From the NCBI GenBank assembly GCA_024638855.1, contig JAHEJP010000004.1, positions 1 through 38,487 on the forward strand: a DNA stretch of 38,487 bases. Direction: 5' to 3'. The notes below the pieces were generated by a model. The model saw only the letters and a program-made list of their open reading frames with translations, was not told the origin of the DNA and did not search any database. The stretch is from Chloroflexota bacterium. Lineage in GTDB: Bacteria > Chloroflexota > Anaerolineae > Promineifilales > Promineifilaceae. Both the position numbers and the translations under genes were made by a program. Of this stretch, positions 3,320 through 32,993 are shown piece after piece. Every line of letters begins with the position of its first letter. The stretch's first letter is position 1.

Positions 3320-6300
3320 ATGCCTAGCCTGAAAGTATCCTTACTCGGTCCACCCCATCTTGAGCTGGACGGTGTCCCCCTAAAATTCGATTCGCGTAAG
3401 ATCCTTGCCCTAATCGCCTTCCTCGCAGTGACAGGTGAAAATCACAGCCGTGAGTATTTGATCACCTTGCTCTGGCCTGAACTTGATCCCAGCCGCGCTC
3501 GGGCAGGCTTACGCCGCAACCTCTCGGTACTTAAAAAAGCGCTGGGCGGGAAGTGGCTGGTTGCGGACAGGGAAACAGTTGGTTTTGACCTCAGCGCCGA
3601 CGCATGGCTGGATGTGGCTCAATTTCGCCGGCTGCACCAAGCTTGGCAGGGGCACGATCATCCACAAGCCCAAATCTGTCCCGAATGTCTGATCGCTTTG
3701 ACTGAAGCTGTCGCCCTGTATCGGGGGGATTTTTTGGCGGGCTTTAGCCTGCGTGATAGCGCGAATTTCGATGAATGGCAGTTCTTTCAGACCGAGGGTC
3801 TGCGCCAAGAGTTTGCTTTTGCTTTGGAGCGACTAGTGAAGGGTCAAGCAGCCCAGGGAGAGGTCGAGTCGGCCATCCCCTACGCCCGGCGCTGGCTGGC
3901 GCTCGACCCATTACATGAGCCTGTTCACCGGGTTCTGATGAAGTTGTATGCCGAGTCAGGCCAACGTGCCGCCGCTCTGCGCCAGTATGGTGAATGCGAG
4001 CGGGTTCTCGAACAAGAATTGGGCGTACCTCCAGAAGATGAAACGATTCAGCTATTCAAGGCCATCAAAGGAAAACGGGAGTTGCCTCAGCCGGGAGAGC
4101 GCATCGTCACGATCTCCCAACCGGATATCCTGAACGGCCGCTACCGCCTCGACGCAGAACTTGGGCGGGGCAGTATGGGGGTGGTTCACCAGGCTCATGA
4201 CCTCCTGCTCGACCGTGAAGTCGCCGTCAAAGTCTATTCGGCCGCCAGGCTAGGCACGGAGGGTCGTTCCCGATTGCTGGACGAAGCCCAGGCTGCCGCC
4301 AAACTCAATCATCCAAACATCGTCAGTGTATACGATGCTGGTGAAACTGAAGAGTCATCTTATATCGTGACAGAGCTAACGGTGGGCGAATCCCTCCACA
4401 CTCGCCGCCCTAAAGCTTTAGATGATATCCTGGTCATCGCCCAACAGGTATGTGCAGCTCTTGAACACGCCCACACGCACGACATCGTCCATCGTGACCT
4501 CAAACCGGAGAACATCATCATCACCAACGATGGCGCCGCCAAACTGACCGACTTTGGCCTGGCCCGGCCGGTTGCCTCTCGAATCACCAGCCAAGGCGCC
4601 ATCATCGGCACCGTATTCTATCTGGCGCCAGAACTTGCTCTGGGTAAACGTTTTGATGGTCGCGCCGACTTATATGCACTGGGCGTGATGCTGTACGAAT
4701 TGACAACCGGCAGCCTGCCCTTTACCGCCGATGATGCGATGGCCGTGATTTCCCAACATCTGCACGCTCCTGTGGTTCCACCGCGGGCCAAAAATGCCGA
4801 AATTCCGCCCATGCTCGACGCTTTGATCGTCAGTTTGCTGAACAAAGATCCGAAAGATCGCCCGGCTTCCGCTGCCGAGGTATTTGGTTTCCTCATTTCG
4901 CCCGATATTCTGGAGCAAACGACCATCTCCGATGAAGAACTTTCAATGTTGAAACGAATTGGGCCTGGTCAGCTGGTGGGCCGTGACCAAGAACTCAGGC
5001 AAGCAAGAGGCCTATGGAGCAGGATGCTTTCTGGTCAAGGCCAGATGCTGTTGCTCAGTGGCGAAGCGGGCATTGGCAAAACCCGCCTGGTGCGTGAGTT
5101 GGCCACACATGCCCAAGTCTCCGGAGGCCAGGCGTTAGTGGGATCGTGCTATGCCGAAGGCGTCATGCCTTATACACCTTTCACACAAATCCTGCGTCGG
5201 GCTTTCGACGGTGAATCGGGCGAAGATCTTAATTTGCCAGAGTTCGTACTAGCCGATCTGTTAACGCTGGTCCCCGCACTGCGTTTGAAGTATCCAGATA
5301 TCCAACCCAAACCGGCACTCGAGGACCCCGAGGCCGAGCAGCAGCGGATGTTTGAGAACCTGGCCATCTTCTTTTACGCCTTGAGCGACCGCGCCCCACT
5401 TCTGTTGATCGTGGAAGACGTCCATTGGGCAGATAGTGGTACCTTAACCTTGTTGCGCCACATGGCCCGCCACACTCGCCAGAGACGGGTGATGATCGTG
5501 ACCACCCATCGCGAAGTGGGACCAGAAGAAGCAAGGCTTTTCCACGAGATGCTGCTGGACCTCAATCGCGAGAGGCTTGTATCTCGGATAAGGCTACCCC
5601 GTTTGGACCGTGAGCAAACTAAAGAGATGCTGGCCCTCTTGTTTGCCGAGGAGATCACTCCGGCATTCGTGGACGGCATTTACGGCGAAACTGAGGGTAA
5701 TCCATTTTATATCGAGGAAGTGTGCAAGGCGCTGGTGGAGAGCGGCAAACTGTATTTCGCCGATGGGCGCTGGGAACGGCCGAGCATGGAAGAGATAGGT
5801 ATCCCACAGAGTGTTCAGGTGGCCATCCAGTCGCGGGTGCGGGTGCTTCCTGCTGATGCTCAAGAGATATTGTGTTTGGCCGCCGTGCTGGGACGCGAGT
5901 TTGAGTTCGACATCCTATTGGAAGCCAGCGAACAAGACGCGGACGTACTAGTCGATGCACTGGAAAATGCTGAGCGAGTCCAGATCATTGAGACGGTGAG
6001 CAGGCAGGGGGGTGGCATATTTTCCTTCGTTCACGCCTTGATCCCTACCACGCTTGTCGAGAGTACCCGCACCTTACAACGCCGGCGGCTACACCGCCAT
6101 GCGGCCGCAGCCATTGAGGATCAGCACCCGGATGATTTTGAGGTATTGGCCTATCACTACACTCAGGCCGGGGACCTAGAAAAAGCTGCGAAGTATCTGC
6201 TGCAGGCGGGGGATCGAGCCCGCGGGCTATATGCTCACCAAGAGGCGATAAAAAGCTATCGGCAGGCACTAGAGTTCCTGGAAAAGGCGGGCGACCTGGA

Positions 6301-15013: not shown

Positions 15014-16525
15014 ATGACCGATCTACTCCTCGGCATCGACATTGGCACGACCAATATCAAGGCGGTATTAACGACCCCTGAGGGTTGGATCATTGCCCAG
15101 GCTCAAACTGACTATCAGACTTATCGCCCCAAACCTGGCTGGGCGGAACAGGATCCGCTAGATTGGTGGCGCGGGACAGTCGAAGTCACCCGTGTCGTGC
15201 TGGCCAATGCTCCTGCAAGGCCTGAACAGATCGTGGGCATCGGGGTAAGCGGTCAGGGCTGCGCCGTCACATTAATCGATCAAAACGGTGAGGTAGTTCG
15301 CCCGGCAATTATCTGGATGGACATGCGCTCAGAACCGCAGAGCGAATATTTGCGGCATTGCTGTCAGGCTGAAATTCTACAGCAAAACGGCAAGCAACCC
15401 GCCCCTTACAACGCCGATCCGGTTTTGCTTTGGCTGAAGGAACATGAGCCAGAAGCGATTACCGCCGCCCAGACCAGCCTGACGAGCACGGGTTACATCA
15501 ATTTCCGGCTCACTGGGGAAGCGGTAGAAAACCAGTCGGATGCCAGCATTCTATTTGCGTTTGATCTGGCTAAGGGATCGTGGTCGGAGGAACTGATCAC
15601 CGCCTTTGGTTTGCCACGTAAGTTATACCCAAATATCGTCCCTTCAAGTGAAATTATCGGCACGCTCAGCGGGGAAGCCGCAACGGAATTGGGCCTCATC
15701 CCAGGTGTACCTGTGGTTGCGGGAGGGGAGGATACATCGTCCGCCGGATTGGCGATCGGTGTATCAGAAACAGGACAGGCGTTTCTGTCCTTAGGCACGG
15801 CGGGTACGATCTATATTGTAGAAGATCGGCCGATTGTTCACCCCCAATTGTTGGCTTTTCTACATGTTTTACCCGGCCAAACGCTGTTGGGTGGTTCGAT
15901 AACTGCTGTTGGCGCAGGACTCAACTGGATTCGTAAGCTCTTTGGCGCGGAATTCGACTATATTCAGCTAAGTGAGATGGCTCGGCAATCCCCACCGGGT
16001 GCAGGCGGGGCACTGTTTTTACCTTACCTCAGTGGCGAGCTGCAGCCGATTAACGACGGCAACGCCCGCGGCGTGTTTTTTGGTTTAAGCATGAGTACCA
16101 GTCCCTCACACATGGTGCGCGCCGTGATGGAAGGTGCGGCCTTCGCCATTGCCCATAACATCGTTATTGCCAGCGAAGCGGGCTCGACTATCACGGAACT
16201 ACGAGCTGTAGGCGGTCCCACCAAGAGCGATCTCTGGTGCCGCATTATCGCTAATATCACCGGTTACCCGGTGACAGTCCTGGCTGACAATGCCGGCGCC
16301 CCTCTGGGGAATGCACTCCTGGCGGCGGCTGGCATCGGCCTGATCGACGACCCGGCGGCAACAGCTCGAAAAGTCGCTCGCATTACCGGTCAATACGAAC
16401 CAAACCCCAGGTTCAGGGATCGATACGTGGAGATGTTTGCCATTTACCGGCAGCTTTATCCACAACTGAAAAATCAGTTTACAGCACTGGCAGCAATCAA
16501 AGACGTTCACGAGGATCTGGAATGA
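15014..16525 (+). CDS. FGGY-family carbohydrate kinase (xylulokinase-like)
   Basis: 503 residues, typical for the family. The N-terminal ATPase fold begins LLLGIDIGTTNIKAVL, with the phosphate-1 loop, and continues with GIGVSGQGCAVTLID and IWMDMRSEPQ. The C-terminal domain contains LGTAGTIYIV and the FGGY signature region RAVGGPTKSDLWCRIIANIT, then GAPLGNALLAA. The enzyme phosphorylates a ketose, polyol or sugar acid with ATP in the cytoplasm. Xylulose is the nearest guess, but the locus lacks a xylose isomerase, so another substrate is likely. It is the first gene of the plus-strand unit and overlaps the next by four bases (ATGA). No clear ribosome site is visible. Confidence 0.88.
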   Translation: MTDLLLGIDIGTTNIKAVLTTPEGWIIAQAQTDYQTYRPKPGWAEQDPLDWWRGTVEVTRVVLANAPARPEQIVGIGVSGQGCAVTLIDQNGEVVRPAIIWMDMRSEPQSEYLRHCCQAEILQQNGKQPAPYNADPVLLWLKEHEPEAITAAQTSLTSTGYINFRLTGEAVENQSDASILFAFDLAKGSWSEELITAFGLPRKLYPNIVPSSEIIGTLSGEAATELGLIPGVPVVAGGEDTSSAGLAIGVSETGQAFLSLGTAGTIYIVEDRPIVHPQLLAFLHVLPGQTLLGGSITAVGAGLNWIRKLFGAEFDYIQLSEMARQSPPGAGGALFLPYLSGELQPINDGNARGVFFGLSMSTSPSHMVRAVMEGAAFAIAHNIVIASEAGSTITELRAVGGPTKSDLWCRIIANITGYPVTVLADNAGAPLGNALLAAAGIGLIDDPAATARKVARITGQYEPNPRFRDRYVEMFAIYRQLYPQLKNQFTALAAIKDVHEDLE

Positions 16526-17289
16526 GACTTAAAGACAAGGTAGCGATTATCACCGGTGCCGCCCAAGGAATCGGCCAAAGCTGTGCCGAGAGCTTTGCCC
16601 GTGAGGGGGCAAAAATCGTTGTCGCCGATCGCTTTAGCCAACGTGGCGAGCAAGTCATGGCCAGCATCGTCGCACTTGGCGGCGATGCCACTTTCATGGA
16701 AGTCGACGTATCACAACCTGAGCAGGTTGAAGCGATGGTTTCGCAAACTATAAACCATTACGGAAAGCTTGATGTACTGGTCAGTAATGCCGGCGTCGGC
16801 GGACGTAGGTTTGGAGATGGTCCCATACACGAATGCACCATCGAGGGATGGGACGCCATTATGGCAGTCAATCTACGCGGCATGTTCCTGGCCTGCAAAT
16901 ATGCTATTCCCGAATTGCTGAAGACGCGGGGGAACATCGTCACCGTGTCCTCTATCCTGGGGTTGGTCGGTTCACAGGGTTTGTACGATACGCATGCCTA
17001 TATGACCTCAAAAGCGGGCATCATCGGCCTGATGCGAACTATTGCCGCTTATTATGCCAAAGATGGTCTGCGGGCAAATGCTCTGGCGCCGGGACTGGTC
17101 GATACGCAAATGGCGAAACGAACCAAAGTGGATAAGGAGCTTATGGAGCAGATTGAGTTTTGGCAGCCGCTTGGTCCTATTGGCGAGGTGCGCGATGTGG
17201 CTGAGGCGGCCGTTTTCCTGGCCAGCGACGAAGCCAAATTTATCACAGGCGTCGTACTGCCGATAGATGGCGGCTGGTCGGCTCAATAA
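16522..17289 (+). CDS. Classical SDR-family oxidoreductase
   Basis: 255 residues. TGAAQGIG near residues 11-18 is the cofactor-binding Gly motif and VADRF suggests an acidic residue after strand two, which would favour NAD. NAG appears in LVSNAGVGG. The catalytic serine lies in VTVSSILG and the YxxxK pair in HAYMTSKAG. LPIDGGW at the end is the usual C-terminal signature. It would oxidise or reduce a hydroxyl group of a sugar, polyol or sugar acid. The start codon overlaps the kinase stop, so the two are translationally coupled and probably act in sequence. Confidence 0.9.
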   Translation: MRLKDKVAIITGAAQGIGQSCAESFAREGAKIVVADRFSQRGEQVMASIVALGGDATFMEVDVSQPEQVEAMVSQTINHYGKLDVLVSNAGVGGRRFGDGPIHECTIEGWDAIMAVNLRGMFLACKYAIPELLKTRGNIVTVSSILGLVGSQGLYDTHAYMTSKAGIIGLMRTIAAYYAKDGLRANALAPGLVDTQMAKRTKVDKELMEQIEFWQPLGPIGEVRDVAEAAVFLASDEAKFITGVVLPIDGGWSAQ

Positions 17290-17317
17290 AGGAAACAAAG
17301 ACAGAAAGGAAATAGAT

Positions 17318-18115
17318 ATGGAACTGACATTTCCCTCGCAGCTTGACCGTGTAAGGAGCGGCGTCCTGGCTCAGGCGGAGGCGTTGCAGAAGGTCGCCGC
17401 CATCTATGCTGATGCGTTAGAGTATGGTGGGTTGGTACATGTTTATGCCAACGGCCATTCACGCCTCACAGTAGAAGAGATGGTTGTACGCATGGGGGCG
17501 CTGACCGGCTTTCACGCGCTTCTGAATACGGGATTGGCCAACTTTACCGATGTTATTGGTGCAAATGGCGTGCGCGTTAACCAAGCCATTGAAAAGGTAG
17601 AAGGACTGGGTGAGATTATTCTCAACGAGTACGACATTGGCCCCTATGACGCCCTGGTGATCGTATCAGCCACTGGCACAACGGCGGCGGCGGTGGATAT
17701 GGCCCTGGCCTTCAAACGACGTTACCCGGATCATCCACTGATAACGATTTGTTCACTTGAGCAATCGCGGGAGGCTCCAGCCAAACACAGCAGTGGCCAG
17801 AATTTGTACCACGTTATTCAGGAGTCTAAGAACGGGTTTTTGCTGGATAACTGCATGCCTTACGGCGATCTATCGGTGTCAATAGAGGGACAGACCGGAG
17901 ACTACCGGGTCTGTCCACTCTCCTCTATTGGCGCGCTGACTCTCGTCCAGTCACTGAACGAGCTAACGATACGCGAAATGGATCGCCGTGGCGTCAGGCA
18001 TCATGTGTTACGCAATATGCACCTGGATGATACCGAGAATAGTTATGAACTGTGGGTGCGTGACCAACGCCGGCGCTATGCCCGCACGCTGGATAACACA
18101 CAGCCTGCGCAATAG
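17318..18115 (+). CDS. SIS-domain sugar-phosphate isomerase/binding protein
   Basis: 265 residues from ATG at 17318; AAAGGA lies eight bases before it, and an upstream in-frame ATG at 17267 would overlap the SDR gene. The fold is that of the UPF0309-type SIS proteins: VHVYANGHSRLTVEEM (phosphosugar loop), a central VIVSATGTTAAAVDMALAFK with the Ser/Thr-rich loop, and LITICSLEQSREAPAKHSSG. SIS domains bind phosphorylated sugars and catalyse aldose-ketose isomerisation or removal of substituents. The substrate is unknown. The tail (last about 30 residues) is charged and has no recognisable role. Confidence 0.83.
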   Translation: MELTFPSQLDRVRSGVLAQAEALQKVAAIYADALEYGGLVHVYANGHSRLTVEEMVVRMGALTGFHALLNTGLANFTDVIGANGVRVNQAIEKVEGLGEIILNEYDIGPYDALVIVSATGTTAAAVDMALAFKRRYPDHPLITICSLEQSREAPAKHSSGQNLYHVIQESKNGFLLDNCMPYGDLSVSIEGQTGDYRVCPLSSIGALTLVQSLNELTIREMDRRGVRHHVLRNMHLDDTENSYELWVRDQRRRYARTLDNTQPAQ

Positions 18116-18147
18116 CGATTGACTGCTTATCAAGAGGCTTTGAGTTG

Positions 18148-19482
18148 ATGGATATTTACCGCAAACGATTGCCACTGCTAACGGAAGCGGACGTGATCGT
18201 TGTAGGTTCTGGCTCGGCCGGAGCGACGGCAGCAATTGCTGCCGCCCGAAAAGGCGCCAGGACCGTGTTAATTGAGCGTTTCGGCTTCATGGGCGGCACG
18301 AGCACCCAGGTTCTGGATACATTTTATGGTTTTTACACGCCTGGAGAAGTTGCTTACAAGGTTGTGGGCGGGGTGCCAGATGACGTTGTGACCGCTCTTA
18401 AAGAACGGAATATGGCTTTCGAACGGCCGAATTCATTCGGCGCTGGTACGGGCATTACCTATGATCCTTTTACTTTGCAGCTCGTTTGGGAACAGCTAGC
18501 CCAACAGGCGGGCGTTCAGCTACTTTACCACAGCTTCTGCACCGATGTGCTCATGGACGGCAATCGCATCTCGGGCGTTGTTGTCGATGGCAAACGTGGG
18601 TTAATGAAGATCCCTGGGCGGGTGGTAATTGACGCCAGCGGTGATGCTGATGTATGCCACCAGGCAGGCGTTCCCTACGAACGAGCGGGGGACATCGACC
18701 CGGCACAAACTCTGACGACGACTTTTCGTTTGGCGAATGTGGATACAGGACGGGCCAAGGCCTTCGGGAAAAAGGCGATGTGGGCAAAAATGGAAGAGGC
18801 GGTTACCTCCGGCCAGTACAACTTGCCCAGGCGAGAAGGAAGCTGGCATGTCACGACCCAGCAGGGTGTCACCCATACGATCATGACTCGGGTGGCGGAC
18901 ATAGATGGCACTGACCCAATGGCGCTGACAGGGGCGGAGATAGAAGGGCGAAAACAAGCGTTCGAGTATGCCCGATTTCTGCGCGATTGTGTTCCTGGCT
19001 ACGAAAAAGCAGCTCTATCCTGGCTTAATCCCTCTATTGGCGTCCGCGAGACGCGGCGTGTGTACGGCCGTTACCGACTTACGCGTGAAGACTGCCTGAG
19101 AGCGCGCAAGTTTGAGGATGCCATTGGCGCCTGCGGCGCGCCCATCGAGGACCACAGCCCAGGAGCGGACACAACCTGGATTTACCTACCAGAGGGCATG
19201 ACCTATGACATTCCATACCGAACGTTATTACCGCAAAAGATCGATAATTTACTGGTGGCGGGTCGCTGTTTTAGCGCCACGCACGACGCGCATGCTTCCT
19301 GCCGCTCGATGGCCCAAACGATGACCATGGGCCAGGCAGCCGGTACGGCCGCGGCTATGGCCGTGCAGAGCGACTCTCTGCCAAAGGACCTTTCTGTTCC
19401 TGATCTGCAAGACAATCTGCTGGCAATAGGAGCTAAATTCGGCCAAATTTCGGTCGAGCTTGAGCCACAGCACTCGTTATAA
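18148..19482 (+). CDS. FAD-dependent oxidoreductase (FAD_oxidored type)
   Basis: 444 residues. The ATG at 18148 is preferred; TTG at 18145 is better spaced from AGAGG (18133-18137) and could be the start instead. The dinucleotide-binding motif VIVVGSGSAGATAAIAAARK is at about residues 14-33, followed by IERFGFMGGTSTQ. A second family motif, VVIDASGDADVCHQAG, is central, and near the C-terminus LLVAGRCFSATHDAHAS and MAQTMTMGQAAGTAAA form the FAD-closing region. This resembles the PF12831 family, whose members have few known substrates. No membrane segment is seen. It may oxidise the sugar or an intermediate of this locus. Confidence 0.85.
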   Translation: MDIYRKRLPLLTEADVIVVGSGSAGATAAIAAARKGARTVLIERFGFMGGTSTQVLDTFYGFYTPGEVAYKVVGGVPDDVVTALKERNMAFERPNSFGAGTGITYDPFTLQLVWEQLAQQAGVQLLYHSFCTDVLMDGNRISGVVVDGKRGLMKIPGRVVIDASGDADVCHQAGVPYERAGDIDPAQTLTTTFRLANVDTGRAKAFGKKAMWAKMEEAVTSGQYNLPRREGSWHVTTQQGVTHTIMTRVADIDGTDPMALTGAEIEGRKQAFEYARFLRDCVPGYEKAALSWLNPSIGVRETRRVYGRYRLTREDCLRARKFEDAIGACGAPIEDHSPGADTTWIYLPEGMTYDIPYRTLLPQKIDNLLVAGRCFSATHDAHASCRSMAQTMTMGQAAGTAAAMAVQSDSLPKDLSVPDLQDNLLAIGAKFGQISVELEPQHSL

Positions 19483-19491
19483 GGAGACTTG

Positions 19492-20520
19492 ATGAAAAAA
19501 TTGTTACCCACCAGTGTTGTAGGCTCCTACGCCTGGCCTAGTTGGCTTCATACCGGCCTGGCAGCAGCTCATCGGGGTGAGTATGGGCCCGTCGATACTG
19601 AGGAACTGTTGAACGATGCTGTAGACATGGCAATACGCGATCAGGAGGATGCGGGTATCGACCTGATATCCGATGGCGAAATGCGTCGGGCCGGCTTTTT
19701 TACCGCTGCCTTCTACGGCCACCTGACCGGTTTGGAGCCACTGGAACCTAATCGCAAGGTCGGGGCCGCCGGACATGACCAGCAGCATCGCTTCAAAGTT
19801 GTGGAGCGCATCAGCGCACCGCACGGTTTTGGCGTCGTCAACGAATACTTGTATGCCAGACAGCGGACAACAAAGCCACTTAAATGTCTGATACCTGGTC
19901 CGTTCACTCTGGCCGGCCGTTTGACCTACGGCGATGGTGAAGTCTACGGAAGCCGGGAGGAAGCCGCCTGGGATTTTGTACCTCTTGTGAACGCGGAGAT
20001 TAAGGCGCTGGCTGAGGCTGGAGCGGAGTTTGTTCAGCTTGACGAACCCTCTTCAGCCATCCATCCCAATGCAGAGGCCGCTTTTAGTGAATTATTCAAT
20101 GCGGCGCTCAAAGATGTGACAGGTGTAACACTGGCTGCCCACCTTTGTTTCGGCAATTATGTGGGGCGGCCGTTATCGAAGCGGACCTACAAACCGATCT
20201 TTGATGAAATGATGGCCTTTAACGTTGACCAATTGTTACTTGAATTCGCCAATCGAGAGATGGCTGAAGTCGAGCTTCTGACCGAGGTTACTCAGGAAAA
20301 GGAAGTAGCAGTTGGGGTCGTCGATGTTAAAAGTTACTATATTGAAACGGCCGAAGATGTTGCCGAACGCATACGAACGGTCTTGACAGCCGTGCCCGCA
20401 GAGAAACTCAGCCTTATCCCTGACTGTGGATTTAGTGAAACAGCACGCTGGGCCTCTCGGGCAAAATTGCATGCTTTAACAGCCGGCGCAGCGCTGGTTC
20501 GCCAGCAATTAATGGGATAA
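19492..20520 (+). CDS. MetE C-terminal-domain-like zinc methyltransferase homologue
   Basis: 342 residues from ATG at 19492; AAGGAG (19481-19486) is five bases upstream. It matches the catalytic C-terminal domain of cobalamin-independent methionine synthase but lacks the N-terminal half. The zinc ligands are all present: His217 and Cys219 in AHLCFGN, Glu251 in LLLEFANRE and Cys312 in IPDCGFSETAR. Spacing between Cys219 and Glu251 is ten residues longer than in E. coli MetE. VVGSYAWP and GEMRR at the start also fit the family. Family members move methyl groups to a thiol acceptor. In a sugar locus it may demethylate a methylated or thio-sugar, which is inference only. Confidence 0.83.
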   Translation: MKKLLPTSVVGSYAWPSWLHTGLAAAHRGEYGPVDTEELLNDAVDMAIRDQEDAGIDLISDGEMRRAGFFTAAFYGHLTGLEPLEPNRKVGAAGHDQQHRFKVVERISAPHGFGVVNEYLYARQRTTKPLKCLIPGPFTLAGRLTYGDGEVYGSREEAAWDFVPLVNAEIKALAEAGAEFVQLDEPSSAIHPNAEAAFSELFNAALKDVTGVTLAAHLCFGNYVGRPLSKRTYKPIFDEMMAFNVDQLLLEFANREMAEVELLTEVTQEKEVAVGVVDVKSYYIETAEDVAERIRTVLTAVPAEKLSLIPDCGFSETARWASRAKLHALTAGAALVRQQLMG

Positions 20521-20527
20521 ACACTGG

Positions 20528-21487
20528 ATGATCAAAATGAAAAGTATCGAAACGACGCTTGGCCCGCTGCCAGCCGATCAACTAGGCACAAGGATCAATG
20601 CTCACGATCACCTTTTCCTCGACAGCGGGCCTGGCGGGGTGAACGTGCCCGATTTTTTGCTTGATGATGTTGACAAAACCACAGCTGAAATTCGTCGTTG
20701 GGCTGCAGCCGGTGGCGGCGCAATTGTTGATACCATGCCTACGACTGGACGAAATGTCGACAAATGCCTCGAAGTCAGTCGGCAGACCGGTGTCCCCATT
20801 ATCATGTCAACTGGTTTTCACAAAGGAGCATACTACTGGCCTGATCATTGGCGATATCTATATGATGAGGACGAGATGGTTGAGTTGACCTTGACCGAGA
20901 TCACCGAAGGCATCGAACGTACGAACTATAGAGGACCCGTCATCAAGCGTAGCACTGTGAAAGCGGGCGTGATGAAGATCGCCGGTGAATACAATCGCGT
21001 AACCGACAATATGAAAAAGCTTATCCGGGTTATTGGGCGTGTGCATCAGAAAACAGAAACGCCAGTTTATGCTCACACCGAACACGGAACCGCAGCGGAA
21101 GAATTGCTCGATTTGCTTGAAGATGCTGGCATACCGCTAAACCGTGTGTTGATTTGTCACCTCGACCGTAATCCAGATCTCTTTGTGCACAAACACATAG
21201 CTAAACGCGGTGCATTTCTCGAGTATGATACTCCCAGCCGCATTAAATATCAGCCGGAAAGCATCGTGATTAGACTGATGCGCTCCATGATCGAGGCTGG
21301 ATACGGTGACCGAATAATGCTTGGTGGTGACATGGCTCGACGTTCCTATTTAAAGGCGTATGGTGGAGGTCCTGGATTTGAATATCTATTGACAGTATTC
21401 ACGCCACGCCTGGTGAGAGAAGGCTTCTCTGAAGAAGATCTACAATTGATTTGGGAAGACAATCCTGTGCGTTGGTTGACAGGCTGA
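20528..21487 (+). CDS. Phosphotriesterase-family metal hydrolase, probable sugar-lactone hydrolase
   Basis: 319 residues forming a TIM-barrel amidohydrolase-type protein. The full binuclear metal site is visible: His26 and His28 in NAHDHLFL, the likely carbamylated Lys150 in KAGVMKI, His183 in YAHTEHG, His211 in ICHLDRN and Asp268 in LGGDMAR. In this family several members near sugar genes open phosphorylated or free sugar lactones. With a kinase and a dehydrogenase beside it, hydrolysis of a sugar-acid lactone (phosphate) is the best guess. No strong ribosome site precedes ATG 20528; ATG 20537 is another option. Confidence 0.87.
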   Translation: MIKMKSIETTLGPLPADQLGTRINAHDHLFLDSGPGGVNVPDFLLDDVDKTTAEIRRWAAAGGGAIVDTMPTTGRNVDKCLEVSRQTGVPIIMSTGFHKGAYYWPDHWRYLYDEDEMVELTLTEITEGIERTNYRGPVIKRSTVKAGVMKIAGEYNRVTDNMKKLIRVIGRVHQKTETPVYAHTEHGTAAEELLDLLEDAGIPLNRVLICHLDRNPDLFVHKHIAKRGAFLEYDTPSRIKYQPESIVIRLMRSMIEAGYGDRIMLGGDMARRSYLKAYGGGPGFEYLLTVFTPRLVREGFSEEDLQLIWEDNPVRWLTG

Positions 21488-21642
21488 TCGAGATTATATG
21501 GAAGCAAATCTGGTTCGATGTTGAACCGCGAGTTGAGGCGTTTGAGAAGCCAATTGATGAAGAACATTCCACGGCGAAACATTCCTCCCATACTGCCACA
21601 AGATGAAGGCCAACAATTGACTATCATAAAGCAGCTGGAGAA
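21488..21642. other. 155-bp interval between the lactonase-like gene and the aldolase
   Basis: A 44-codon frame (21518-21652, start MLNRELRRLRSQ) ends in TAATG overlapping the ATG at 21652. This could be coincidental or a coupled leader peptide. No other signal was seen. Confidence 0.3.
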
Positions 21643-21651
21643 ATGGCATTA

Positions 21652-22302
21652 ATGATGAGAAAACACCAGCAACTGCAACTTATCCGGGATACCGGACTAA
21701 TCGCCATCATGCGGGCCAGTAATTCGGAACGATTATTGGCTGCGGCCGAAGCTATTTGGGCTGGCGGGGTGCAGGCCATCGAAGTAACGATGACCACGCC
21801 TGGTGCGTTGGAAGTCATAAAAGGTGCCACGGAGAGATTTCATGGAGAGATGCTATTTGGCGCTGGTAGCGTACTTGACGCGGAAACGGCCCGGATAGCG
21901 ATATTATCCGGCGCCGGCTTTATCGTGTCACCCACAGTTAGTGTGGACGTGATCCAGCTATGCAATCGCTACAGCGTGCCGGTAATGCCTGGTTGTTATA
22001 CCCCTACCGAAGCTCTTACCGCCTGGCAGGCTGGCGCCGACATGATCAAGCTATTTCCGGCCAATGTTGGCGGACCAGGTCTGGTTAAGGCGATATTGGC
22101 GCCACTGCCGCAACTGGAAATCGTGCCGGTGGGAGGCGTAAGCTTAAACTCCGCCGCTGATTTTATCCGGGCCGGAGCAGTGGCCCTGGGCGTGGGCAGT
22201 AGCCTTGTCAATCAACTGGCCCTGGAGACTGACGATATGGCTGCCCTTACCCGGCGAGCAGCGGCGTTTGTAAAAGCGGTTGAGGACGGGCGACAAGGCT
22301 GA
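21652..22302 (+). CDS. KDPG/KHG-type 2-keto-3-deoxy sugar-acid aldolase
   Basis: 216 residues from ATG 21652. ATG 21643 is possible, but GGAG at 21637-21640 is then only two bases away. The Schiff-base lysine is in DMIKLFPAN, the catalytic glutamate in QAIEVTMTTPGA and the phosphate-binding region in PVGGVSLNSAADF; GAGSVLD and GCYTPTEA also match the class I Eda family. The enzyme cleaves a 2-keto-3-deoxy acid phosphate to pyruvate and an aldehyde (glyceraldehyde 3-phosphate in the Entner-Doudoroff route). Specificity in this family varies and no Edd dehydratase is present, so the true substrate may be a related sugar acid. Confidence 0.88.
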   Translation: MMRKHQQLQLIRDTGLIAIMRASNSERLLAAAEAIWAGGVQAIEVTMTTPGALEVIKGATERFHGEMLFGAGSVLDAETARIAILSGAGFIVSPTVSVDVIQLCNRYSVPVMPGCYTPTEALTAWQAGADMIKLFPANVGGPGLVKAILAPLPQLEIVPVGGVSLNSAADFIRAGAVALGVGSSLVNQLALETDDMAALTRRAAAFVKAVEDGRQG

Positions 22303-22604: not shown

Positions 22605-24650
22605 ATGAAGAGGTTTATGTACATTTTATCGCTCTTGATCATTGGATCGATGATCTTGGTTGCCTGCGGATCTGGTGAGGAACCAGTCCTGGAACCAACA
22701 GAACCAGCAGCGCAAGAAGAGGCACCGGCTGCAGAAGAAGAAGCGCCAGCAGAAGAAGAAGTGATGGCAGATGAGGAGTTGACATTTGTGGCCATCAACA
22801 AGAGCGCTGACCAACAGTACTTCATCGACCTGCAAAACTCGTTTGTCGAGACAGCCGAGGGATTGGGCGCGCAGGCGCTTAAATTTGACGCTAAGCTGGA
22901 CCCGAGCCTGGGTGTCAGCCTGGTGAATGACGCCATTTCTGCTGGCGCCAAAGGCATCGCCATCACCGTTCCCGATCAAACGATCGGCCCGGCGATTGCT
23001 CAGGCTGCCAGGGATGCGGGCGTCGTCTTGATCGCGACGGATGATGGCATCGTCGACGAGAATGGAGACCCGGTTCCGTTCGTCGGTTTTGACGGCAAAG
23101 ATATGGGCAAGAAAGTTGGCGAGGCTGCAGCAGCACTGCTAACCGAAAGCGGCTGGTTGGATGATGCTGCCAAGAAGGTTGGCGTTCTATCGGTCGAGGT
23201 TCAGACGCTTTCCGTATGCAATGACCGTACTGACAATGAGAAAGCGGCCGTCATCGCTGCCGGTGTGCCGGAAGACCAGGTTTACCCAGTTCCATACACG
23301 GGTGAAGCCCTGTCCGCTCAAGACGCGGCCGGTCCAATCATCACCGCCAATCCTGATGTCACCAACTGGATTGTCTTCGGCTGCAACGATGAAGGCGTCT
23401 TAGGCACCTTGAACGCATTGGCTACAGCCGGTTACAGCCCTGATGATATCATCGGGGTCGGCCTTGGCGCCTACGAAGCCTGCAAGTTCTGGGCAGCCGA
23501 GCAACCTTCCGGCTTCAAGGCTGGTCTGTTCATCTCCGGCCTGGATGTCGGCAATACCGCCGCAAATGTGCTCTATGAGGCGGTAGTCAACGGCGTAGAA
23601 CCGCCGCCTAATTCTTTTGCTCCGACCTCCATTGTCGACTCGTCAAACTACGAGTCTGTGATGGATGCCATCTCGCTGGCGAATTGCGGCACTGAGCCTG
23701 CGGAAGTGCCAGCGGCAGAAGCGCCCGATGAGCTACTGTTTGTGGCCATCAACAAGAGCGCTGACCAACAGTACTTCATCGACCTGCAAAACTCGTTTGT
23801 CGAGACAGCCGAAGGATTGGGCGCGCAGGCGCTTAAATTCGACGCTAAGCTGGACCCGAGCCTGGGTGTCAGCCTGGTGAATGACGCCATTTCTGCTGGC
23901 GCCAAAGGCATCGCCATCACCGTTCCCGATCAAACGATCGGCCCGGCGATTGCTCAGGCTGCCAGGGATGCGGGCGTCGTCTTGATCGCGACGGATGATG
24001 GCATCGTCGACGAGAATGGAGACCCGGTTCCGTTCGTCGGTTTTGACGGCAAAGATATGGGCAAGAAAGTTGGCGAGGCTGCAGCAGCACTGCTAACCGA
24101 AAGCGGCTGGTTGGATGATGCTGCCAAGAAGGTTGGCGTTCTATCGGTCGAGGTTCAGACGCTTTCCGTATGCAATGACCGTACTGACAATGAGAAAGCG
24201 GCCGTCATCGCTGCCGGTGTGCCGGAAGACCAGGTTTACCCAGTTCCATACACGGGTGAAGCCCTGTCCGCTCAAGACGCGGCCGGTCCAATCATCACTG
24301 CCAATCCTGATGTCACCAGCTGGATTGTCTTCGGCTGCAACGATGAAGGCGCCTTAGGCACCTTGAACGCATTGGCTACAGCCGGTTACAGCCCTGATGA
24401 TATCATCGGGGTCGGCCTCGGCGCCTACGAAGCCTGCAAGTTCTGGGCAGCCGAGCAACCGTCCGGCTTCAAGGCTGGTCTGTTCATCTCCGGCCTGGAT
24501 GTTGGCAATACCGCCGCAAATGTGCTCTATGACGCGGTAGTCAACGGTGTAGAACCACAGGCTAATTCTTTTGCTCCGACCACTATTGTGGACGCTGACA
24601 ACTACACTGATGTCATGGACGAAATCTCGTTGGCGAATTGCTCCCAATAA
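22605..24650 (+). CDS. Double-domain sugar-binding lipoprotein of an ABC importer
   Basis: 681 residues from ATG at 22605, with AAAGGAG upstream. Residues 1-20 are a lipoprotein signal ending LVAC, Cys21 the lipidated residue. An acidic Glu/Pro/Ala linker spans about 25-58. Two periplasmic-binding-protein domains of the ribose/arabinose class (Peripla_BP_4) follow, residues about 61-378 and 379-681, each starting FVAINKSADQQYF and ending SLANC. The repeat unit is 954 bp (318 codons) in frame, and copies are almost identical until their last about 110 codons. Each carries TVPDQTIG, DDGI, NDRTDNE and FGCNDEG, so both look able to bind ligand. Partner ATPase and permease genes follow. Family members normally have one domain. 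Confidence 0.93.
   Translation: MKRFMYILSLLIIGSMILVACGSGEEPVLEPTEPAAQEEAPAAEEEAPAEEEVMADEELTFVAINKSADQQYFIDLQNSFVETAEGLGAQALKFDAKLDPSLGVSLVNDAISAGAKGIAITVPDQTIGPAIAQAARDAGVVLIATDDGIVDENGDPVPFVGFDGKDMGKKVGEAAAALLTESGWLDDAAKKVGVLSVEVQTLSVCNDRTDNEKAAVIAAGVPEDQVYPVPYTGEALSAQDAAGPIITANPDVTNWIVFGCNDEGVLGTLNALATAGYSPDDIIGVGLGAYEACKFWAAEQPSGFKAGLFISGLDVGNTAANVLYEAVVNGVEPPPNSFAPTSIVDSSNYESVMDAISLANCGTEPAEVPAAEAPDELLFVAINKSADQQYFIDLQNSFVETAEGLGAQALKFDAKLDPSLGVSLVNDAISAGAKGIAITVPDQTIGPAIAQAARDAGVVLIATDDGIVDENGDPVPFVGFDGKDMGKKVGEAAAALLTESGWLDDAAKKVGVLSVEVQTLSVCNDRTDNEKAAVIAAGVPEDQVYPVPYTGEALSAQDAAGPIITANPDVTSWIVFGCNDEGALGTLNALATAGYSPDDIIGVGLGAYEACKFWAAEQPSGFKAGLFISGLDVGNTAANVLYDAVVNGVEPQANSFAPTTIVDADNYTDVMDEISLANCSQ
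22785..23738 (+). repeat. Tandem duplication, copy 1 (954 bp)
   Basis: First copy of the sugar-binding domain coding unit. Positions 22887-23344 read as identical to 23841-24298 over 458 bp. Only two substitutions occur earlier (22839 or so, and 22886). Confidence 0.95.
23739..24650 (+). repeat. Tandem duplication, copy 2
   Basis: Second copy, offset by exactly 954 bp. Substitutions begin at 24299 and become dense after about 24530, giving distinct C-termini for the two domains. The joining linker (CGTEPAEVPAAEAPDE) resembles the acidic N-terminal linker. Confidence 0.95.
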
Positions 24651-24741: not shown

Positions 24742-26286
24742 ATGGCTGAAGAAGATAGTAACCCTCCTGGCACCCTGAAAGTCCGCAACATCAGCAAGGC
24801 CTTTCCCAATGTTCAAGCCCTGGCGGATGTCTCCCTCGATATTCGGCCAGGAGAGATCCTTGCTTTTATGGGTGAAAATGGCGCCGGAAAGTCCACGCTG
24901 CTTAAAATCATCAATGGTGACTATCGGCAGGACATCGGAACCATCTCCATTGATGACAAAGTGCTTTCATTCTCAAACCCAAAGCAGGCTCACGAAGTAG
25001 GCATACGAGTCATTTATCAGGAACCTGAAATTGTCCCGGGTACCGCCGTCCCAGAAAACATATGGATCGGCGAACTCCCGAAACGATATGGTGTTATCGA
25101 TCGCCGCCAACTTAATGAGAAGGCTCAGAGACGCTTGGAGGAATACGGGTTTGAAAACGTCTTGCCGATTGGCCTGATGGGTGAGGAACTTTCATCAGCC
25201 CAAAGACAACTTGTCGAAATCATGCGTGCTCTTAAAAAAGATGTTCGCGTTCTGGCGCTAGATGAACCAACTTCGTCCCTGACTGACGAAGAAGTCGATC
25301 GCCTGTTCTCTCTGGTCCGACGCTTGCGCGATGATGGCGTTGCCATTATTTATGTATCCCACCGGATTAACGAGATTAAGCGCTTGTGCGACCGAATCGC
25401 TATCTTGCGTGATGGACGGTTGATCTCTGTGAAACCGGCACCAGAAATGACTGAGGCCGAGATCGTAAGCTTGATGGTCGGCCGTGATCTATCGGATGTT
25501 TTTCAGCGACATCCGGCCGGAAGCGACCGGGAGGTTCTGAGAGTTGAAGAGTTGTACAGTAATTGGCACAATGGCGTCAGCTTCCACATCAATGCGGGAG
25601 AGGTCGTGGGCTTTTCTGGTCTTATCGGTGCAGGCCGGTCTGAACTGGCAAAAGTAATCTTTGGGGAAATGCCGAAAAAAAGTGGGCGCATTATCCTTGA
25701 TGGGGAAGAACTCACTATCAACCGTCCTGATCAAGCTATAGCAAAAGGGATCGGTTTTGCGCCCGAAGACCGCAAACGCGAAGGCCTGATCCTGATGCGC
25801 AGCGTTCTTGAAAATGCCTCGATGGCCATCCTGCGCCAATTGAGTCGCTTTCACATTGTGAGCCGGACCCAGGAAAGGGAAATTGTGGGGAAGTTCGTCG
25901 AAAAACTCAACGTGCGCACGCCTTCCTTGGATCAGGAAGTAGGTAAACTTTCCGGTGGTAACCAGCAGAAAGTTGTTTTGTCGCGTTGGCTGGCTGCTAA
26001 ACCAAAAATTCTCATCCTTGACGAGCCAACTCGTGGAATTGATGTGGGCGCAAAAGCCGAGATCTATGGCTTGATCGACGAGTTGGCCAACGAAGGGCTG
26101 GGAATCATGTTTATCAGTTCCGAAATGCCGGAGATTCTCGGACTGGCAGATCGTGTTTACGTTATGCAGAACGGCCGAATAACTGGGGAACTGTCTTCGG
26201 CAGACGCTACTGAAGAGGCGATACTCGAACTCGCCATGGTCGACGATCTGTCACCGGTCCAAAGTAAAGTTGCAGCACAATCATAA
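24742..26286 (+). CDS. Sugar ABC transporter ATP-binding protein (RbsA/MglA type)
   Basis: 514 residues with two fused nucleotide-binding domains, as in monosaccharide importers. The first (about 10-235) has Walker A GENGAGKST, an altered signature LSSAQRQLVEI and Walker B LALDEPTSSL. The second (about 255-500) has a degenerate Walker A GLIGAGRSEL, signature LSGGNQQKVVLSRWL and Walker B ILILDEPTRGIDVG, so one site is probably catalytically weaker, as in the family. It powers import through the permease encoded 12 bases downstream. The start follows a hairpin, and no strong ribosome site is seen. Confidence 0.93.
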   Translation: MAEEDSNPPGTLKVRNISKAFPNVQALADVSLDIRPGEILAFMGENGAGKSTLLKIINGDYRQDIGTISIDDKVLSFSNPKQAHEVGIRVIYQEPEIVPGTAVPENIWIGELPKRYGVIDRRQLNEKAQRRLEEYGFENVLPIGLMGEELSSAQRQLVEIMRALKKDVRVLALDEPTSSLTDEEVDRLFSLVRRLRDDGVAIIYVSHRINEIKRLCDRIAILRDGRLISVKPAPEMTEAEIVSLMVGRDLSDVFQRHPAGSDREVLRVEELYSNWHNGVSFHINAGEVVGFSGLIGAGRSELAKVIFGEMPKKSGRIILDGEELTINRPDQAIAKGIGFAPEDRKREGLILMRSVLENASMAILRQLSRFHIVSRTQEREIVGKFVEKLNVRTPSLDQEVGKLSGGNQQKVVLSRWLAAKPKILILDEPTRGIDVGAKAEIYGLIDELANEGLGIMFISSEMPEILGLADRVYVMQNGRITGELSSADATEEAILELAMVDDLSPVQSKVAAQS

Positions 26287-26298
26287 GGTTAACATAAT

Positions 26299-27435
26299 AT
26301 GAGCAACGAAACAATAGTCCAACCCAAATTCTTGAAACAAAACACTGGTATCTTTCGTCGGATTGTCAATGCAATTGGCGTTGACAACCTGACCCTCATT
26401 TTCGCCATTGTGATTCTTCTATTTCTCATCATGGTCGCTAGTGGCTGGTTCGGTTTTGACGGCGGAGATAAATTTTTATCCTGGCAAAACCTGATGAACA
26501 GTCTTGCCACAGCAATTGTGATCGTCGGTCTATTGGCTATTGGCGAAACAGTAGTAATTATTGCTGGTGCACTCGATATCTCCGTTGGTTCTATTGCTTC
26601 AATAGGCTCAGTTGCCGCGGCATCGTTCTTGGTTGGCGCGGGCGCATTTGGAGTTATTAGCTTTCTTCCCATAGGCAATGTTTTCTTTGCCGTGCTGATG
26701 GGCATCATAGCCGGGATGTTGTGCGGTGTAGTCAACGGCTTTATTGTCACTGTCCTAAAGGTCAATCCAATTATTGCCACCCTCGGAACATTGGCCGCTT
26801 TCGGTGGTGTTGCTTTCTTGATAGCGCCAGAAGGTAAACCAGTTGGGGTAATGACACAGCCGCAGTTTACGTGGCTCGCCCAAGGTCGCTTCCTGACCGA
26901 CCTGCCGATTCCTCCTCTGGGTAATACGAATTGGCCTGGTATTCCTGTGTTAACTGTTATTCTTCTGGCAGTGGTGTTCATCGCTCATTTCCTGATGAGC
27001 TATACTGATTTTGGCCGGGCGATTTACGCCATAGGCGGTAATGATATCGCCGCTCGCCTGGCGGGCATTAATCTGTCGCGGGTGCGTGTATTGATGTACA
27101 TGCTCTGCGGCAGTGTTGCTGGCCTCGCCGGCGTACTTCTGACATCACGAACGACCTCAGGCAACCCGATTAACGGCGTAGGATTAGAATTGCAAGCGAT
27201 CACGGCCGTATTCCTTGGTGGCGCGGCTACAACGGGAGGCAAAGGAACGGTTGTGGGCACTTTCCTAGCTGTTATTCTGGTTGGCATTCTTAATAATGGC
27301 ATGAATCTGCTTGGATTCAACACCTTTGTCCAACGAGTTGCGCTGGGCTTGTTACTCATTGCTGCTGTAGCCCTTTCTCAGTGGCGCCAGGCACGGGCCG
27401 AACGCGCCCGCACGACACTTGCCGCGGAGGCCTAA
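26299..27435 (+). CDS. Sugar ABC transporter permease (RbsC/XylH type)
   Basis: 378 residues, nearly all hydrophobic, with about nine or ten membrane segments (the first at about 30-53). Family features include LLAIGETVVIIAGALDISVGS, the NGFIVTVLKVNPIIATLGTL region and the cytoplasmic EAA-like loop with YAIGGNDIAARLAGINLSR. The C-terminal GKGTVVGTFLAVILVGILNNG is typical. It forms a homodimer channel for a monosaccharide or similar ligand. Spacing of 12 bp to the ATPase gene indicates one unit. No unusual residue was noticed. Confidence 0.93.
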   Translation: MSNETIVQPKFLKQNTGIFRRIVNAIGVDNLTLIFAIVILLFLIMVASGWFGFDGGDKFLSWQNLMNSLATAIVIVGLLAIGETVVIIAGALDISVGSIASIGSVAAASFLVGAGAFGVISFLPIGNVFFAVLMGIIAGMLCGVVNGFIVTVLKVNPIIATLGTLAAFGGVAFLIAPEGKPVGVMTQPQFTWLAQGRFLTDLPIPPLGNTNWPGIPVLTVILLAVVFIAHFLMSYTDFGRAIYAIGGNDIAARLAGINLSRVRVLMYMLCGSVAGLAGVLLTSRTTSGNPINGVGLELQAITAVFLGGAATTGGKGTVVGTFLAVILVGILNNGMNLLGFNTFVQRVALGLLLIAAVALSQWRQARAERARTTLAAEA

Positions 27436-29714: not shown

Positions 29715-32700
29715 ATGAAAGACGAACAAGTTGAGTGCTGGGAGGAGTCAGTATCAATCCCAACCTACCGCATTGGAGAACCAGAAAGGAACCCAATGTT
29801 CTTGGAGAAGCGCGTCTATCAAGGCAGCAGCGGCGTCGTTTACCCTTATCCAGTGATCGAGCGCGTATTTGATGAAAAATACGACAAAGAATATACGGCC
29901 GTTTTCCTTGAAAATCGCTACTTAAAAATCATGATCCTGCCAGAAATCGGTGGGCGCGTACAAATGGCGCTCGACAAAACCAACGGTTATCATTTCGTCT
30001 ACTACAACCAGGTCATCAAACCGGCATTAGTTGGTTTGGCCGGCCCCTGGATCTCCGGCGGCATTGAGTTTAACTGGCCGCAGCATCACCGTCCCACTAC
30101 CTTTGATCCGGTCGACTGGCGGACCGAAGTGCACACCGATGGCAGCAAAACTGTCTGGTGCGCGGAAATAGAGCGCATGTTCCGCACGAAAGGCATGCAT
30201 GGTTTTACCTTGCACCCCGATCGGGCTATCCTCGAAATCAATGTGCAACTCTATAACCGTACCGCCGAACCACAGACATTCTTGTGGTGGGCTAATCCTG
30301 CCGTGTCAGTAAACGACGACTACCAATCGATTTTCCCGCCCGATGTCCATGCCGTCATGGACCATGGCAAGCGGGATGTGTCCGACTTCCCCATCGCAAC
30401 CGGCACTTATTACAAAGTGAACTATGCCCCAGGCACCGACATCAGCCTTTACAGGAATATTCCTGTGCCTACCTCTTACATGGTGTGCCATTCCGACTTT
30501 GATTTTGTCGGCTGTTACGATCATGGCAGGCAGGCTGGCATGATGCACGTGGCCAACCATCACGTGGTGCCGGGCAAAAAACAATGGACGTGGGGCTGCG
30601 GCGATTTTGGCCAGAGCTGGGATCGCCAACTCACGGATGAAGATGGGCCGTATATCGAATTGATGTGTGGAGCGTATACGGACAATCAGCCAGATTTCTC
30701 CTGGTTGCAACCGGGTGAGGAAAAGAGCTTTAGTCAGTTTTTTATACCGTATAAGCAAATCGGTGGCGCTAAGAATGCATCCAAGGATGTGATTATTAAC
30801 CTGGAAGTTGATGGGGAACAAGCGAAGATTGGCGTATATGTTACCAGGCCGCACAAGGTGCAGGTGGCCCTGCTAGACAATGATCGACCTATCTTTCAAA
30901 ATGAGGTGACGCTTACGCCGGAAACACCGTTAGTGAGATCGGTTCAATTGCCACCAGATACGCCCCCCCAAGCGTTTACCCTATGCGTGATGGATGGCGA
31001 GGAAGAATTGTTATCGTTTACGCCACTGCCAGACAAGAAACTACCTACCCCCGATCCGGCCACGCCGGCCACACCGCCGGCAGAAATAGTCAGCATCGAA
31101 GAACTTTTCCTGAACGGATTGCATCTAGAGCAATACCGTCACGCCACATATAAACCAGAACCCTATTACGAAGAAGCTTTGCGTCGCGATCCAGGTGACA
31201 GTCGTTGTAATAATGCCATGGGGCTGCTGTTATTTCGGCGGGGGAAATTTGCCGAGTCCGAGTTGTATTTTCGCCGGGCCATTGAACGGTTGACGTCGCG
31301 TAATCCGAATCCTTATGACGGCGAACCATCATACAATCTTGGTTTATCGCTCAAGATGCAGGGACGTTATGAGGAAGCGTTTGATGCGTTTTATAAAGCG
31401 ACTTGGAATGCGGCCTGGGGGGCCGCGGCGTTTTTTGAGTTAGCCCGGTTGGCCAGTCGCGCGAGGCAACCGCAAGTGGCTATTGAATTGCTTGAGCAGG
31501 CTCTGGCAAGAAACGGCCGCCATCACAAAGCGCGACACTTATATGCCATTCTGCTGAGGCATTTGGGAATGTTCGACGCTGCCTTATCCACCACCGCTAA
31601 AAGTTTAGAAATTGACAAAATTGAATATGGTGCGCTGTGGGAACGATATCTGTTAGTAAATGATTCAACATTTGAACAGATTACAAGGCTGAACCCAGAT
31701 ACATTGATCGAACTGGCCATTGATTATGCATATGCGGGTCTATTTGACGATGCGGCAGCACTATTGAATAGCGTTTCTGATGTGGAACCAATGGTCAAAT
31801 ATACGCTAGGTTGGATCTATGAACAGGCTGGCGAAATTGAAAGAGCCCGCGAGGTATTCCAGGAAGCAGTAAACCTTCCGCCTGACTACTGTTTTCCCAA
31901 CCGGCTGGAGGATGTTCTATCATTAACGGCTGCCATGCGCCTGAACCCGGGTGATGCAAGGGCTCCTTACTATTTGGGTAATTTCTGGTATGCAAACCGA
32001 CGGTATGATGAAGCGATCACCGCCTGGGAACGGGCCCGTTCGTTAGATGATCAGTTCGCCACTGCGCATCGGAATCTAGGGTTGGCCTACTACAACAAAG
32101 AAGGTGATCCTCGGAAAGCAGTTCAGAGTCTGGAAACCGCCTTCGCTCTAAATTCGCATGATGCTCGCGTGCTTTATGAACTCGACCAACTTTACAAGAG
32201 ACTAAACCGTTCACCGGCAGAGCGTTTGGCGTTCCTTGAGCAGCAGACCGATCTCGTGGCCGAGCGGGATGATCTCAGTATTGAGCTAATTACTTTGCAC
32301 AACTTGTTGCATCGGCCGGAAGATTCATTACGGCAACTGGCAAACCGGAATTTCCATCCATGGGAAGGTGGAGAAGGGAAAGTCACCAGACAGTACGTGT
32401 TAACTCTTGTCGAGATGGCGCGAAAATGTATTGAGCGTGGGGAATTTGAAACGGCCATTGAATATCTACAGGACGCCCAAACCTATCCCCCTAATCTTGG
32501 CGAAGGCAAACTGGATGGCACTCAGCAAAACGACATCCACTACTATCTAGGCTGTGCCTACGAAGGGCTTAGGTTGGCCAACAGCGCTCATGAATGGTTT
32601 ACACGGGCTGCAACAGGCTTGACCGAACCGACGTCGCCAATGTACTACAATGACCAGCCGCCAGATATGGTTTTTTATCAAGGGCTGGCACGGCAGAAAT

Positions 32701-32993
32701 TGGGAGATTCGGCTGAGGCGCAGTCTATATTCCGTAGGTTGGTGAACTATGGCCAGGCCCACATGGATGATGAAGTCAAAATTGACTATTTTGCGATCTC
32801 GCTACCCAACTTTTTGGTTTTTGATCAAGACCTCAACCAACTCAACCAGATCCATTGTCACTACATGATGGCCCTGGGCTATAGTGGTCTGGGCCAGCAA
32901 GCAACCGCACAAGCTCATTTTGATAAGGTGCTGCAGCTTGATTCGAGTCACCTGGGCGCAGTGCTGCACCGGCAGTTGTTACAACAGCAATGA
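29715..32993 (+). CDS. DUF5107 domain protein with C-terminal TPR array
   Basis: 1092 residues. The N-terminal about 400 match the DUF5107 family, with PMFLEKRVYQGSSGVVYPYP, LKIMILPEIGGRVQMALD, GGIEFNWPQHHRPTTF and QTFLWWANPAVSVND; the fold is mutarotase-like. Residues about 400-450 form a beta module, and about 450-1092 hold around ten tetratricopeptide-like units (for example EAFDAFYKATWNAAWG and DEAITAWERARSL). No signal peptide or membrane helix was found, so it is probably cytoplasmic. The DUF5107 family sits repeatedly in sugar-catabolism loci; it may bind or process an oligosaccharide, with the TPR array recruiting partners. GGGAG is about eleven bases before the ATG. Confidence 0.88.
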   Translation: MKDEQVECWEESVSIPTYRIGEPERNPMFLEKRVYQGSSGVVYPYPVIERVFDEKYDKEYTAVFLENRYLKIMILPEIGGRVQMALDKTNGYHFVYYNQVIKPALVGLAGPWISGGIEFNWPQHHRPTTFDPVDWRTEVHTDGSKTVWCAEIERMFRTKGMHGFTLHPDRAILEINVQLYNRTAEPQTFLWWANPAVSVNDDYQSIFPPDVHAVMDHGKRDVSDFPIATGTYYKVNYAPGTDISLYRNIPVPTSYMVCHSDFDFVGCYDHGRQAGMMHVANHHVVPGKKQWTWGCGDFGQSWDRQLTDEDGPYIELMCGAYTDNQPDFSWLQPGEEKSFSQFFIPYKQIGGAKNASKDVIINLEVDGEQAKIGVYVTRPHKVQVALLDNDRPIFQNEVTLTPETPLVRSVQLPPDTPPQAFTLCVMDGEEELLSFTPLPDKKLPTPDPATPATPPAEIVSIEELFLNGLHLEQYRHATYKPEPYYEEALRRDPGDSRCNNAMGLLLFRRGKFAESELYFRRAIERLTSRNPNPYDGEPSYNLGLSLKMQGRYEEAFDAFYKATWNAAWGAAAFFELARLASRARQPQVAIELLEQALARNGRHHKARHLYAILLRHLGMFDAALSTTAKSLEIDKIEYGALWERYLLVNDSTFEQITRLNPDTLIELAIDYAYAGLFDDAAALLNSVSDVEPMVKYTLGWIYEQAGEIERAREVFQEAVNLPPDYCFPNRLEDVLSLTAAMRLNPGDARAPYYLGNFWYANRRYDEAITAWERARSLDDQFATAHRNLGLAYYNKEGDPRKAVQSLETAFALNSHDARVLYELDQLYKRLNRSPAERLAFLEQQTDLVAERDDLSIELITLHNLLHRPEDSLRQLANRNFHPWEGGEGKVTRQYVLTLVEMARKCIERGEFETAIEYLQDAQTYPPNLGEGKLDGTQQNDIHYYLGCAYEGLRLANSAHEWFTRAATGLTEPTSPMYYNDQPPDMVFYQGLARQKLGDSAEAQSIFRRLVNYGQAHMDDEVKIDYFAISLPNFLVFDQDLNQLNQIHCHYMMALGYSGLGQQATAQAHFDKVLQLDSSHLGAVLHRQLLQQQ

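Follow-up and report, generated by a model that had tools for sequence, protein, structure and literature searches.

Binding proteins usually have a single domain, and most work on how transporter output varies with site number concerns importers with permease-fused binding domains, GlnPQ and OpuA among them. The locus described here encodes a free, lipid-anchored binding protein with two nearly identical sugar-binding domains. The gene lies in a stretch of 38,487 nucleotides (hereafter the window) from a Chloroflexota bacterium, covering positions 1 to 38,487 of the forward strand of contig JAHEJP010000004.1 in assembly GCA_024638855.1. Loci, contigs and genomes are labeled L, C and G, respectively; the contig of the window is C141 and the gene itself L001.

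The open reading frame at 22605–24650 on the plus strand starts with an ATG at 22605, ends with a stop codon at 24648–24650 and translates into 681 amino acids with no internal stops. It is one lipoprotein with two AraF-like Peripla_BP_4 domains (Table 1). The signal peptide and lipobox cysteine (LVAC, Cys21) were read by eye, and Peripla_BP_4 (PF13407) matches the protein in two stretches at 155 bits, against a gathering cut-off of 35.1, with each domain scoring 83–85 bits when taken alone. Ungapped comparison of the gene with itself at a shift of 954 bp gives a match from 22785 to about 23697 within the single open frame, in agreement with the in-frame duplication of that period proposed in the first-pass annotation. 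The copies differ only at 22859 and 22886 within 22785–23344, and positions 22887–23344 and 23841–24298 are the same over 458 bp without a difference, exactly as previously read. The earlier observation that changes rise after 23345 and become dense near the end also holds, as single differences at 23345, 23365, 23398, 23465, 23507, 23549, 23579 and 23594 are followed by a dense series from 23603 on. The translation likewise bears out that the lipobox and N-terminal linker occur only once; a separate 16-aa linker lies between the domains. The two domains share 96% protein identity. Most of their differences fall within the final 30 codons, and between 22857 and 23688 synonymous changes account for many of the altered codons. 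An AlphaFold model of the full protein, built from five sequences, is poor (mean pLDDT 57).

Table 1. Features of the binding-protein gene and its neighbors in the window, and multi-domain Peripla_BP_4 proteins of the same genome
Feature	Position	Strand	Basis
Lipoprotein signal peptide, lipobox LVAC, lipidated Cys21	22605..22667	+	Translation, by eye
N-terminal Pro/Ala/Glu-rich linker, about 38–39 aa, once, from anchor to domain 1	22668..22781	+	Translation
Sugar-binding domain 1, Peripla_BP_4, AraF-like	22782..23687	+	Pfam; PDB sequence match; repeat
Stretch of 458 bp identical to 23841–24298	22887..23344	+	Shifted self-comparison
Inter-domain linker, 16 aa	23688..23735	+	Translation
Sugar-binding domain 2	23736..24647	+	Pfam; repeat; 96% identity to domain 1
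CUT2-type double ABC ATPase, closest to AraG	24742..26286	+	Pfam; equivalog models
Permease BPD_transp_2, closest to AraH, separate gene	26299..27435	+	Pfam; equivalog models
Sugar-catabolism genes upstream, same direction	15014..22302	+	Pfam/model matches; SDR from its sequence
Multi-domain Peripla_BP_4 proteins in the window's genome	C141 (window), C169 (three domains), C514, C306, C454, C467		Internal repeats confirmed

The pattern of differences bears on how the copies have stayed alike. In the domain body without the last 30 codons, 10 codons differ between the copies, and the run of 152 identical codons would be unexpected if these were randomly scattered (P = 0.002). This run supports partial homogenization of the copies, for which the first-pass annotation suggested gene conversion. 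The 3′ gradient cited for it is not proof on its own, because conservation is lowest in the C-terminal segment (the last 30–60 residues), whether domains of one binding protein or of different ones are compared. The dense 3′ changes in part reflect a C terminus that evolves fast in these proteins generally, and conversion is better supported by the long identical run. The copy number in the host genome, a metagenome-assembled one, could exceed two if another identical copy collapsed in the assembly.

The surrounding genes point to the function of the protein. A double ATPase, a BPD_transp_2 permease and a Peripla_BP_4 binding protein in one cluster make this a CUT2 importer, and the Pfam matches and gene order support a covalent double binding protein served by one ATPase/permease pair. 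The assignment of that pair to the RbsA/RbsC type calls for refinement: the closest models are those of AraG and AraH, although both scores fall below the equivalog cut-offs (587 of 689 bits and 185 of 378 bits, respectively), and the AraF equivalog model has no match in the 681-aa protein. The nearest solved structures of the binding domain are L-arabinose-binding proteins (1abe, from E. coli, E = 4.5e-32, PDB sequence match). Upstream are genes for an FGGY kinase, an SDR dehydrogenase, an SIS protein, an FAD oxidoreductase, a MetE-like protein, a phosphotriesterase/phospho-furanose-lactonase-like protein and a KDPG/KHG-type aldolase, a set that fits a pentose or aldonate route. The predicted sugar is a pentose-like pyranose. 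The same cluster also includes, at 29715–32993 on the plus strand, a gene for a protein of 1092 aa that contains DUF5107 and TPR repeats and lies next to the transporter in several relatives. Elsewhere in the window (3320–7930, plus strand), a 1536-aa protein combines BTAD, Ser/Thr kinase, AAA_16 and TPR domains with a C-terminal SBP_bac_5 domain; very long SBP_bac_5 reading frames on C394 and C450 suggest more multidomain proteins of this kind.

We compared the binding pocket with that of the arabinose-binding protein (ABP), whose sugar contacts we take to be K10, E14, W16, D89, D90, R151, N205, N232 and D235. In the alignment to 1abe, where the placement of ABP residues 1–27 is manual, K10, D89/D90, R151 and N205 correspond to K66, D146/D147, R208 and N261 in domain 1 and to K384, D464/D465, R526 and N579 in domain 2. 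No aligned double protein, even one with only 39% identity, varies at these residues in either domain. The positions of E14, W16, N232 and D235 are occupied here by Q, Y, G and E.

A scan of genome contigs revealed 20 loci related to this gene, nearly all from Chloroflexota. One encodes three domains in a 1008-aa open frame on a 295-kb contig (L009), others encode two (L010, L011 and, from a further genome, L031), and many encode one (L013–L019, L022–L024 and L028). Two contigs of the same bin end inside the repeat (L012 and L021), so this gene has at least two domains. Wherever the contig reaches, an ABC ATPase gene and then a permease gene follow on the 3′ side of the binding gene, whatever its number of domains. 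Domains within one protein are 95–97% identical, and those of different proteins at most about 89%, with the exception of L011 and L015 (93%). The domains of each protein form supported groups in the tree (L001, 99/96; L009, 100/99; L010, 100/100; L011, 96/92; L012 plus L021, 100/97), and single-domain relatives are interspersed. Among 52 genomes searched in the window's own family, only the window's genome has the gene, so the operon is patchy and perhaps horizontally moved. Five relatives (L010, L017, L018, L019 and L023) have signal peptides without an evident lipobox cysteine, and L010 may therefore represent a two-domain form without a lipid anchor. A contig labeled Thiomargarita carries the Chloroflexota operon at high identity (L027) and is probably mis-binned.

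The tandem arrangement extends well beyond this operon. The first-pass annotation was right that the double protein is real; it is not a one-off, as the trait recurs in six binding proteins of the genome and in the family. In the window's genome, 6 of 18 Peripla_BP_4 reading frames above the cut-off have two or three domains. The search for tandem homologs that the annotation proposed yielded two-, three- and four-domain proteins in other Chloroflexota, the longest array being a 1452-aa protein with four near-identical domains (L163, contig C21 of G008). With matches counted at E up to about 1e-49 and the window's own genome left out, 17 of 69 strong Peripla_BP_4 reading frames in the family are multi-domain versus 2 of 140 elsewhere in the phylum sample, a difference (Fisher P = 1.4e-7) that is indicative only, because genome completeness is unequal between the samples, the matches lack phylogenetic independence, and five family frames were entered as multi-domain since other searches showed their further domains. 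One of the two cases outside the family sits in a single contig of 5,258,541 bp, and another double lies in a three-contig genome (G033). Among plasmid records, the ten matches listed are all single-domain-sized, at 870–900 bp. Seven long reading frames with a single match (L172, L173 and L189–L193) proved not to be tandem. In the window's genome, two SBP_bac_8 (CUT1-type) proteins are also double (L194 on C86 and L195 on C68), the copies of L194 sharing an identical stretch of 1146 bp, and an SBP_bac_8 protein on C319 has two domain matches. Because a Peripla_BP_6 (amino-acid type) reading frame at a contig end of the same genome (C248:14-1702) also matches twice, the trait may extend beyond sugar-binding proteins.

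To what extent are the copies maintained? In all 44 tandem proteins measured, ω between copies (Nei–Gojobori) lies between 0 and 0.29, indicating that both sites are kept functional and alike. The corresponding dS values range from 0.01 to saturation, with many pairs above 0.3, and some old pairs are still similar (L179, 94% amino acid identity at dS 2.4; L177, 99% at dS 0.31). Identical tracts are longer than expected by chance in many of the proteins, with P = 0.0002 in L065, L067, L068, L069, L158, L165, L167 and L178. In a tree of eight two-domain orthologs, one from each of eight genomes, every protein's two domains are sisters. When two single-domain orthologs are added, the pair of L161 is left unresolved. 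A clade of all first domains in this larger set is rejected (p-AU = 1.7e-24), which speaks against one ancestral duplication without homogenization. In the AraF-like set and in group D the domains show no signal of positional orthology, their ends included; group C has a faint one at most, confined to its last 75 columns. Tree resolution is poor in the three-domain group around C169. In nearly every case, then, copies within one protein are each other's closest relatives, and together with the rejected first-domain clade this implies either that duplication occurred many times or that an old duplication is continually homogenized.

We consider it probable that the arrangement gives each lipid anchor several equivalent binding sites that serve a single transporter, and that recombination and selection keep the copies alike. 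In this reading the gene supplies a CUT2 ABC importer of the arabinose/pentose type with its membrane-anchored binding protein, and in-frame duplication of the entire binding domain has placed two equivalent sugar-binding domains on flexible linkers behind one anchor. By analogy with known tandem systems, the domains may load independently and dock in turn on a single permease/ATPase complex. With two equivalent domains behind it, each anchor would offer more sites and more loaded domains would be available locally, at unchanged specificity. The number of domains, from one to four, would shift readily via recombination between repeats, and repeated duplication, gene conversion or both would act with purifying selection to keep the copies the same. 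An extra domain is predicted to increase uptake, although close relatives manage with one (L013–L019 and L024).

Some of these observations could also be accommodated if the tandem were mainly a by-product of frequent recombination, with duplications arising, being tolerated and being lost again without benefit. Recombination signatures are indeed common, and domain number differs between close relatives (L011 is double and L015 single; L160 and L162 fall among doubles). We nevertheless regard this account as unlikely, since no decayed second copy was seen among the tandem proteins, their frames stay open and ω stays well under 1 throughout, also in the pairs with saturated dS. The enrichment of one family across different binding-protein subfamilies also argues against it, though a higher duplication rate could explain that enrichment. 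Cooperation between the domains, as has been proposed for OpuA, is rather doubtful; interacting neighbors would keep one another close to the permease, the departure of one making way for docking of the other. A precedent exists in OpuA, whose two substrate-binding domains make transient contacts and work cooperatively (PMC11065425), and the short linkers of 12–16 residues would keep the domains close, but the domains of GlnPQ act independently on a similar 14-aa linker (PMC8025302). Divergence of the domains toward two sugars, or two forms of one as the first-pass annotation had envisaged, is highly improbable. The domains of GlnPQ do differ in specificity (PMC8025302) and the copies are less similar in a few family members (L182, 59%; L181 and L184–L186, about 77–80%), but the near-identity of the window domains disfavors two specificities: their differences fall mostly in the final 30 codons, the pocket residues mapped do not differ between them, and ω is far below 1, as it is in the other multi-domain binding proteins, very old pairs among them. 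An assembly artifact or chimera, which the length of the 458-bp stretch relative to short reads and the contigs broken inside the repeat (L021 and L012) might suggest, is largely refuted and excluded as a general explanation, because the copies differ at dozens of sites, many pairs exceed dS 0.3 and the same architecture is found in contigs of 295 and 560 kb as well as in the single-contig and three-contig genomes described above.

The multiplied-site reading can be set beside known systems. The protein resembles AraF of the AraFGH CUT2 importer in its match to 1abe, in five equivalent pocket residues and in its partner genes, the ATPase being nearest to AraG and the permease to AraH; it differs in having two domains on a lipid anchor, where AraF is a single-domain periplasmic protein, and at the four substituted pocket positions. 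As in GlnPQ, two bilobed binding domains stand in tandem on a flexible linker (roughly 14 aa in GlnPQ) and serve one translocator. GlnPQ, however, is an amino-acid importer whose domains bind unlike ligands and are fused to the transmembrane subunit (PMC8025302). The window protein contains no permease domain, the permease being encoded separately; it is a free lipoprotein with near-identical domains, of which relatives carry up to four. In OpuA, too, each transporter is served by multiple identical binding domains. The tandem domains of GlnPQ bind independently, extending their linker slows transport, and delivery is believed to be faster because of tethering (PMC8025302); in OpuA, a domain and its neighbor can each make the other locally more concentrated close to the permease (PMC11065425). 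In the literature we found tandem substrate-binding domains only in permease-fused systems (GlnPQ and OpuA among them), although subscription journals are thinly covered and absence is weak evidence. Within the same incomplete coverage, we found no publication on tandem binding lipoproteins in Chloroflexota, on free binding lipoproteins with two to four near-identical domains, or on such proteins as a lineage trait. Tandem domains fused to a permease are thus known, and free lipoproteins with two to four near-identical domains are apparently new.

These orthologous transporters form a natural series in which the number of near-identical domains runs from one to three (and reaches four in another subfamily) while the ATPase and permease genes stay the same, making the effect of site number testable. 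They also provide a bacterial case of concerted evolution within single genes. Assemblies from short reads may split genes of this kind or collapse their repeats, as with L012 and L021. For this family of the class Anaerolineae, we see about an even chance that internal domain copy number, with one to four near-identical sites per lipoprotein under concerted evolution, is a general, evolvable means of raising sugar uptake that arose independently in many CUT2 and some CUT1 transporters.
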